From: Roseibacillus sp. | GTDB taxonomy: Bacteria; Verrucomicrobiota; Verrucomicrobiia; Verrucomicrobiales; Akkermansiaceae | Direction: 5' to 3' | Length of the DNA stretch: 40,458 nucleotides | Assembly: GCA_002715825.1 (NCBI GenBank) | Contig: PBAI01000025.1 | Span: 61,405 to 101,862 of the forward strand | Shown: positions 30,976-32,852 of the stretch, in pieces | Layout of the letters: each line of letters starts with the position of its first letter | How positions within the stretch are numbered: position 1 is the stretch's first letter | Notes under the pieces: model-generated | Databases searched by the model: none | Seen by the model: only the letters and a program-made list of their open reading frames with translations | What the model was told of the DNA's origin: nothing | Position numbers and translations under genes: made by a program

Positions 30976-31083
30976 TGTTATGGATTTAATGATCTCTTTG
31001 GATTCGACCTTAACATGCGATTGAGATTTAAATTTCCATACGTATCATTTCCACGGATGGTCAACCCCATCTGTTCTAGAACA

Positions 31084-31395
31084 ATGAAAGTACATCACCT
31101 CATCGCCTTTCTGGCGGTTATGCTGTTGGGCGTCGCCTATGGTGCGGACGTTAAATACGAGGCCACCTTCACGGGTGTCACTTGAGCCGGATGTAAGCGG
31201 AGCGTCAGTTCGTCGCTCCAAAAGCTCGCAGGCGTAAAGACTGTCGAGATCAAAGCCGGTAAGGCACCCAAGACCCAGACCATCATCGTGATGGCTGAGA
31301 AGGGCGGCATCAGCAAGGAAGACGTAGTAAAGGCCCTCGGAAAGACGGCCAAGAAGTTCGTCTGTAAAGACTGGAAAGAGGCCAAAGGCTCCTAA
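31084..31395 (+). CDS. Candidate selenoprotein: exported HMA/MerP-like protein with UxxC motif (in-frame TGA at 31183-31185 read as Sec)
   Basis: MKVHHLIAFLAVMLLGVAYGADVKYEATFTGVT-U-AGCKRSVSSSLQKLAGVKTVEIKAGKAPKTQTIIVMAEKGGISKEDVVKALGKTAKKFVCKDWKEAKGS. TGA replaces the first Cys of the HMA CxxC; frame intact on both sides; SECIS-like hairpin at 31199-31219; TAA stop then terminator. Confidence 0.8.
31199..31219 (+). promoter_or_regulatory. Candidate bacterial SECIS hairpin
   Basis: GGAGCG-U-C-[AGUUC]-G-U-CGCUCC: 6-bp stem, U.U mismatch, C-G closing pair, 5-nt loop with G at loop position 2; stem starts 13 nt after the TGA. Confidence 0.65.
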
Positions 31396-31423: not shown

Positions 31424-31457
31424 AAACGCCCCGCGCTCTGAGGAGCCGGGGCGTTTT
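31424..31457 (+). terminator. Intrinsic terminator downstream of the candidate selenoprotein gene
   Basis: CGCCCCG...CGGGGCG stem with inner GCTC/GAGC pairing, followed by TTTTT. Confidence 0.85.
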
Positions 31458-31469
31458 TCTTTGGTAGTT

Positions 31470-32852
31470 CTACCCAACGATATCACCAATTGAACCAAAT
31501 CCTGGCGAAAATAGCCTCTGATACATCCGCACCGCATACCCATCAGTCATTCCTGCCAGAAAGTCACAAACCAGTCGTGCTCGTTCTCCGGCGGTTTCGA
31601 CATTCTCAATCTCCTCAACCTGCTCAGGTGGCAATAATTGAAAAAACTGACCATCAACAGGCTGCTGATCTACGTAGCGGAGGTGAAAGAGTTCCCATAG
31701 TCTTCGCAGCATCATACTTCCCTTATGCTCGAGCTGCTTGAGCTGGGTCGAGAGAAAGACGACTTCAAAAGCGAGACGTTTAAAGATTTCGCTTTCTGCC
31801 TGCGTCGCCTCATCAATCACGAGCCGAAAGCGGTAGCGGTTACTTTGTTCGCTCAAAAAATTCTTGGTTTCCTCCACTTTGGCCGCTCTTACATACAAGC
31901 CGATCCGGTGGCCCACGAAAGAATCTATCCGGCCCCGGCTTATCGCCCGGATTAAATCGCCCAAGGGACTGTCCGGCCCCGACTCCAATCCCTTTTTTTC
32001 CGCCCACCGACGAACTGATTCCTCGTTGAGAAAACCTGCGCGTACGCTGTCCGCCAGATCGTTCAGCGAATAGGCGGTATCGTCAGCCCAGTCCATGACC
32101 TGACACTCCACTGACTTGAAACTATCTCGCACCTTCCCAGCCTCCAGCTCTCCCGGAAATGCCAGCCCTCCCAATGTCCACTCAGTGTATTCCGACTGTT
32201 CGTCATAAATAAAGTGATTCGCAGGCTCTTTGCCTTTTAGACCCTTCAGCTCTCCCCATCCTGACTTGTATTTGAGGATGCCGTCCACGAAAGCCCGGGA
32301 GGGGTCCATCCCGGTTCGCCGCTGCGAAAAAATACGTTCTGTGAGAAGCCTGAGGGTCTGAGCGTTTCCCTCGAATCCTCCGTAAGGTGCCATGAAGTGG
32401 TTAAGCGACCTCTCCCCCGCATGTCCGAACGGCGGATGACCCAGATCGTGCGAGAGGCATACTGCTTCAACCAAATCCGCATCAATCGTATTTTCCGACG
32501 AGAATTCTTCTGTGGAGGCAAGCAGCCATCCGCAAATAGAGCGTCCTATCTGGGCGACCTCAAGTGAGTGAGTCAGCCTCGTTCTGTAGAAATCATATTC
32601 TCCACTCCAGAACACCTGAGTCTTATTCTGAAGGCGCCGAAAAGCAGTCGTATGAAGCACTCGGTCCCGATCGACTTGGAACGGGCTGCGGAAATCGCCC
32701 TCCACAGGGAGAGCACCGGACAATCTCTCGAAATCAAATTCCTGATAGAAGCGGTTTCGCACGCCCAATAGGTGACCTCTCCAAGCGTTCATGGGAACCA
32801 CGAACTTTTCAAATTCGCCACCAGAGCATCCGCGTCTCGTTGCCAACTCCAT
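31470..32852 (-). CDS. Deoxyguanosinetriphosphate triphosphohydrolase-like HD protein
   Basis: FRSPFQVDRDRVLHTTAFRRLQNKTQVF, RTRLTHSLEVAQIGRSI, CLSHDLGHPPFGHAGE. Confidence 0.92.
   Translation of the reverse strand: MELATRRGCSGGEFEKFVVPMNAWRGHLLGVRNRFYQEFDFERLSGALPVEGDFRSPFQVDRDRVLHTTAFRRLQNKTQVFWSGEYDFYRTRLTHSLEVAQIGRSICGWLLASTEEFSSENTIDADLVEAVCLSHDLGHPPFGHAGERSLNHFMAPYGGFEGNAQTLRLLTERIFSQRRTGMDPSRAFVDGILKYKSGWGELKGLKGKEPANHFIYDEQSEYTEWTLGGLAFPGELEAGKVRDSFKSVECQVMDWADDTAYSLNDLADSVRAGFLNEESVRRWAEKKGLESGPDSPLGDLIRAISRGRIDSFVGHRIGLYVRAAKVEETKNFLSEQSNRYRFRLVIDEATQAESEIFKRLAFEVVFLSTQLKQLEHKGSMMLRRLWELFHLRYVDQQPVDGQFFQLLPPEQVEEIENVETAGERARLVCDFLAGMTDGYAVRMYQRLFSPGFGSIGDIVG

Follow-up and report, generated by a model that had tools for sequence, protein, structure and literature searches.

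Selenocysteine (Sec) in an HMA-type site for soft metals is already known, since UxxU metal-binding proteins, MerT/CopZ fusion-like proteins, cation-transporting P-type ATPases and a 'MerP' from the GOS survey are on record as selenoproteins. The GOS survey lists 2 sequences under the name 'Mercuric transport protein MerP' (PMC2398784), and an inventory from 2026, which covers 119 families and subfamilies of prokaryotic selenoproteins, includes the UxxU metal-binding protein, a Sec-containing P-type ATPase and a Sec-containing MerT (PMC13188914). The same inventory does not contain an exported HMA family with a UxxC site, which is the type of protein described here.

The locus lies in a 40,458-nucleotide stretch of a Roseibacillus sp. 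contig (PBAI01000025.1), hereafter called the window. Its predicted product reached the cut-off of no model in NCBIfam 20.0. The UxxU metal-binding (seleno)protein (NF041115, 'putative mercuric reductase') is also small, HMA-type and has Sec in the CxxC site, and its model was weakly matched by 19 of the 22 members of our local family alignment (best 6e-07); the window protein scored 20.9 bits against a cut-off of 95, and differs by its single Sec (UxGC, not UxxU) and its signal peptide. MerP (TIGR02052) is likewise an exported, free-standing HMA domain, and profile and fold searches matched the window protein to the MerP structures 1afi and 1osd, but the score against the model was 18.9 bits for a cut-off of 92.55 and no mer operon context was seen around the window gene or in the annotated conserved neighbourhoods. 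The MerT/CopZ fusion-like heavy metal transport selenoprotein (NF045683) shares an HMA (CopZ-like) segment; the window protein lacks its MerT membrane part and scored 12.6 bits against a cut-off of 375 (E 0.068). The P-type ATPase selenoprotein (PMC13188914, PMC2398784) has the UxxC motif in a soft-metal protein, and is a large membrane ATPase rather than a free exported domain. Finally, the chaperones CopZ and Atx1 (NF033795, NF047957) have the same fold and metal-site loop. CopZ models gave the best NCBIfam E-values (2.8e-06), with 27.4 bits against the NF033795 cut-off of 91; unlike these cytosolic chaperones, the window protein is predicted to be exported, its first Cys is replaced by Sec and the Met of MxCxxC by Val. 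The window family, its order-wide distribution, its tandem double-Sec forms and its selenium-gene neighbourhood therefore appear new, the GOS 'MerP' pair having been compared by name only.

An in-frame UGA interrupts an otherwise open HMA gene

The original prediction described a gene of 103 codons interrupted by a TGA, and the frame reads exactly as claimed, with the TGA as codon 34 followed by 69 sense codons and a TAA (Table 1). As had been pointed out, no plus-strand open reading frame of at least 80 amino acids spans the locus under translation table 11; the gene is overlooked by ordinary gene finding because the internal UGA splits its frame in that reading. Alignment to the Pfam HMA model placed the TGA on the first Cys of the metal site and showed that the second one is kept. 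General reassignment of the code was ruled out, since TGA terminates 7 of the 19 long open reading frames in the window. The observation that started this work is real and far above chance. The source assembly spans 3.65 Mb in 48 contigs and is 88% complete.

Table 1 Features of the locus; positions are counted from the first letter of the window.
Feature	Position	Strand	Description
Palindrome TGTTCTAGAACA	31072..31083	+	Immediately 5' of the ATG; kept in 11/11 same-genus loci; possible cis element
Predicted selenoprotein gene	31084..31395	+	103 residues including Sec34, HMA fold, exported; TAA stop at 31393-31395
Signal peptide MKVHHLIAFLAVMLLGVAYGA	31084..31146	+	About residues 1-21, from the sequence; putative cleavage site
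HMA domain	31150..31383	+	Residues 23-100, beta-alpha-beta-beta-alpha-beta; Pfam, PDB profile and predicted structure
In-frame UGA, Sec34 (strongly supported)	31183..31185	+	Takes the place of the first Cys in the CxxC metal site of HMA
Cys37 (TGT)	31192..31194	+	Second metal-site residue, invariant across aligned Sec and Cys forms
SECIS-like hairpin within the coding sequence	31200..31218	+	Stem 18-24 with 30-36 (U of UGA = 1), pentaloop, G26-U27 invariant
Possible intrinsic terminator	31433..31454	+	One site found; shuffles yield about 1 by chance

The UGA codon is conserved in related genomes

Homologues were present in 30 of the 58 related genomes examined. UGA stood at the same codon in all 11 close copies from the same genus, including that of the window, in a further, more diverged copy of that genus (G012) and in genomes from other parts of the family and order. 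Where other genomes had homologues, the codon was TGC or TGT. Codon 34 exists in both the UGA and the Cys form, the comparison that the original prediction had asked for. G012 also carried a second, divergent UGA gene. A tree of the family required 3 changes between the Sec and Cys forms, based on few columns and with long branches.

To cover a broader range of genomes, a strict DNA pattern, [M/F]-T-G-[V/I]-T-UGA-x-G-C-[K/Q], was scanned over 84,980 species represented by one genome each. The scan returned 51 loci, for about 3 matches expected by chance according to our estimate from the content of the pattern. Fifty of them belonged to Verrucomicrobiota, overlapping in part with the 11 same-genus genes, and the frame was open on either side of the UGA in 50/50. 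The remaining match, in a Bdellovibrionales MAG (L080), showed homology neither before nor after the TGA and was rejected as a chance hit. The nearest named relatives recovered were MAGs labelled Roseibacillus sp. or Akkermansiaceae. A phylum-wide search did not reveal clear family members outside the order, its weaker matches being mostly generic HMA domains in large proteins. Two loci (L095, the same gene as L023, and L086) encoded two tandem HMA domains with one UGA each. Each of these tandem domains also had its own SECIS-like hairpin.

The same TGA occurs in independent genomes and is therefore not a sequencing error. Decay of the downstream frame, which had been named as an outcome that would undermine the proposal, was not found among homologues: frames were open in the 50 loci, and the region downstream of the UGA was under purifying selection, with a pN/pS (dN/dS-like) of 0.04-0.32 in close pairs when measured beyond the hairpin described below. 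Both a pseudogene and a sequencing error are contradicted by the UGA in independent genomes, the open frames and the downstream selection. Judging from these loci, the gene family is conserved across one bacterial order.

The UGA form is found with a complete Sec machinery

All the components that Sec insertion would call for, and whose absence had been set out as a ground for rejection, were encoded in the source genome: SelA (E 2.4e-125), SelB (281 bits, above cut-off), a tRNA-Sec with a UCA anticodon (67 bits) and SelD (above cut-off). SelD is itself a selenoprotein in this genome, its CAGUASK motif containing an in-frame UGA (L048, C18:15633-16559). SelU, the tRNA 2-selenouridine synthase, was encoded on a contig other than that of the window. 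PF12390, a 40-residue model of the SelA N terminus, found no match in the source genome, a negative that is uninformative because full SelA is present.

selA was present in 18 of 19 genomes with the UGA form, the exception being a genome that is 70% complete, and in 1 of 11 genomes in which the family was represented solely by Cys forms or other variants. The association of the Sec form with selA gave Fisher p values of 4e-6 by genome and 0.0014 by genus, both optimistic because the genomes are related.

A covarying hairpin follows the UGA

The sequence following the UGA can form a hairpin (Table 1), and the core of the same stem was proposed independently by RNAalifold. Across Sec sequences, pair 20-34 was A-U, G-C or G-U, pair 21-33 was C-G or U-A, pair 24-30 was C-G or U-A, and pair 22-32 was invariably G-C. 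Among 44 distinct sequences, changes on both sides of the stem were counted in 21 cells versus 5.8 +/- 1.8 in shuffles; the covariation score was reached by 0/500 shuffles and was also above that of all slid versions, although these controls remove the relatedness between sequences only in part. The second copy of G012, which was outside the alignment, has by inspection a G-C at 21-33, a further compensatory state, and gave no match to the covariance model.

Codon usage was constrained over the same region. Synonymous differences, measured as same-amino-acid pairs with different codons (complete for rows before codon +14), were 0.12, 0.00, 0.15, 0.36 and 0.26 at codons +7 to +11 after the UGA, versus 0.42-0.69 at most other nearby codons. 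Val was encoded by GTC in 46 of 48 distinct sequences and, at +8, Ser was always AGT and Arg always CGT.

A covariance model of the hairpin matched the window element (E 9e-14) and 7/7 Sec loci searched, including some used to train it, but 0/10 Cys-form loci. A second match in the source genome (C30:35891, E 4.7e-4) was taken as chance, as no Sec-like frame is found there. None of the Rfam SECIS families matched the gene. Bacterial SECIS elements are hairpins located just downstream of the UGA with an apical G or GU, and a covarying hairpin with an invariant G26-U27 is what we find here; the distance from loop to UGA also agrees with that of bacterial SECIS elements. Collectively, the comparison of sequences establishes that the UGA is under selection to be translated and that the hairpin is itself under selection.

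The product is predicted to be an exported HMA domain

The proposed signal peptide was supported by the sequence itself, by pLDDT values below 50 across most of residues 1-18 and by lipoprotein signals (lipobox) in two relatives, one a Sec form (L038) and the other a Cys form (L030). The HMA-like fold also withstood Pfam, PDB-sequence and structure comparisons. With Cys substituted for Sec, residues 31-90 passed the cut-off of the HMA model PF00403 (28.6 versus 24.8 bits). The predicted structure had a mean pLDDT of at least 90 in blocks over residues 21-100 and a strand-helix-strand-strand-helix-strand order. Fold matches in the PDB included the ZntA N-terminal domain, MerP (1afi, 1osd), Atx1 and plant HMA domains at E 0.002-0.02, with none below E 0.001 and other ferredoxin-like folds also among them. 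A profile built from 22 family members matched PDB chains of CopA, ATP7B, MerA-N and MerP. Both the predicted fold and export of the window protein are thus well supported.

All aligned Sec members had UxGC at the metal site, and Cys relatives had CxxC. T30, G31, T33, U34, G36, C37, V41, T64 and Q65 were invariant in the Sec alignment, and the canonical Met of GMTCxxC is replaced by Val in the window protein. A Pfam search detected no other HMA domain in the source genome, which therefore has no evident HMA-type partner, given an 88% complete assembly and a search that also missed this split gene.

Genomic neighbourhoods differ between clades

The window gene is flanked upstream by a PVC-type haem-binding protein gene and downstream by an opposing dGTPase gene. 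The latter, a dGTP triphosphohydrolase (31470-32852, minus strand), scored 370.8 bits against the anti-phage dGTPase model, close to its cut-off of 400 but below it. In one clade (10 loci), a divergently transcribed SelU/MnmH gene adjoined the Sec gene and was mostly followed by a NifS/IscS-type desulfurase. In another (7 loci), a ZnuA-like metal-binding protein was encoded immediately upstream of the Sec gene. The conserved neighbourhoods were not of the cop operon type.

Distant Cys paralogues had other neighbours. They adjoined SCO1/SenC in L134 and L140, and cytochrome c in L134, suggesting a copper-delivery role for the L134 paralogue. The genes for cytochrome c, SCO1/SenC and the exported Cys-type HMA protein overlap in that locus (L134:5914-7456). 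In L135, a distant Cys paralogue was flanked by genes for an exported rhodanese and an exported thioredoxin-like protein, and in L139 (1649-2314) a Cys-type HMA domain of the wider family was fused to an exported rhodanese domain. The fusion gene lies near a HupE/UreJ-like membrane protein gene, with a Fur-family regulator further off.

Extracytoplasmic soft-metal binding is the most likely role

The selenoprotein interpretation is supported, about as far as sequence allows, and the identity of residue 34 as Sec strongly so. tRNA-Sec would decode the UGA as Sec34 with the help of SelB, which would recognise the hairpin located 17-35 nt beyond the first base of the UGA. We infer both this SelB-dependent insertion and a Sec34/Cys37 site. 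The product would be exported via its signal peptide, or as a lipoprotein in relatives, and fold into an HMA domain in which the T-Sec-x-G-Cys loop forms a selenolate/thiolate site. Outside the cytoplasm, this site may bind a soft metal, for example Cu(I), Ag(I), Hg(II) or Cd(II), with the protein acting as a scavenger or chaperone; the selenolate could make metal binding tighter or reversible by oxidation.

Two alternatives concern the codon itself. In a truncated gene or pseudogene, the UGA would be a real stop and the downstream frame a remnant. Beyond the fact that TGA is a stop in table 11, nothing speaks for this reading, and the UGA with open frames in 50 loci, the low downstream pN/pS, the covarying hairpin, the tandem two-UGA proteins and the co-occurrence with selA make it very improbable. 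A suppressor tRNA could also insert Cys, Trp or some other amino acid at the UGA, as the Cys found at this site in non-Sec relatives might suggest. This is more improbable still: the genome encodes a full Sec system, whose occurrence correlates with the UGA form, the post-UGA hairpin is not found in Cys forms, and other genes use TGA as an ordinary stop.

The role of the protein is a less settled matter. A genuine selenoprotein made of an exported HMA domain, with soft-metal binding as its most likely activity, is the explanation we favour and think reasonably probable as a whole, and extracytoplasmic binding of soft metals, taken as a role, is probably right. The ZnuA-like protein adjoining 7 Sec loci and the Cys paralogues beside SCO1/SenC and cytochrome c are hints of metal, whereas the lack of an evident HMA partner, the non-mer/cop neighbourhoods and the Val in place of the canonical Met count against it. 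The protein may be the metallochaperone or scavenger for Hg, Cu, Ag or Cd put forward in the original prediction, and the neighbours of relatives also point to selenium or sulfur redox chemistry. One rival to weigh is that the HMA scaffold carries a periplasmic thiol/selenol oxidoreductase, in which a Sec34-Cys37 selenenylsulfide would reduce disulfides, persulfides or peroxides and metal would be secondary or absent. UxxC selenoproteins are mostly thought to be redox proteins (PMC13188914), the rhodanese and thioredoxin-like associations of L135 and L139 fit such a function, and the Met that anchors metal-binding HMA loops is missing; however, fold and motif are those of HMA and not thioredoxin-like, and it is distant Cys paralogues rather than Sec forms that have the redox-partner associations, so that we regard this reading as rather unlikely. 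It is less likely again that the protein serves selenium supply or homeostasis by binding reduced selenium or selenium-metal species outside the cytoplasm, in connection with SelU and the use of selenophosphate. The SelU/MnmH and desulfurase genes of the 10-locus clade would agree with it, but this linkage is limited to one clade, SelU of the source genome lies on another contig while the window gene sits between genes for a PVC haem-binding protein and a dGTPase, and genes for the same trait often cluster without direct interaction.

With soft-metal binding retained as the preferred role, the locus could represent an uncatalogued, order-specific selenoprotein family that employs a selenolate to ligate metal in an HMA metallochaperone or metal buffer outside the cytoplasm, includes tandem double-Sec forms and is tied to SelU; we put forward this fuller proposal tentatively, at slightly short of an even chance. 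If true, selenium would here belong to the handling of soft metals in the periplasm and not to redox catalysis. The locus adds a widespread and easily missed selenoprotein family. As a small system (103 residues, exported, with natural Sec/Cys pairs and tandem double-Sec forms), it offers a test of whether Sec is ever selected to ligate metal away from catalytic redox sites, and a covarying bacterial SECIS inside a conserved coding motif should be useful to train selenoprotein predictors.

The 5' leader is conserved within the genus

The leader CCCCATCTGTTCTAGAACA upstream of the ATG was identical in 11/11 loci (window 31050-31130, L010-L020). It includes the perfect palindrome TGTTCTAGAACA and a possible GATGG...CCATC stem. 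The palindrome occurs as a single copy in the genome, which ruled it out as the operator of a regulon. Within the genus, synonymous sites of the signal peptide were less variable than downstream sites.
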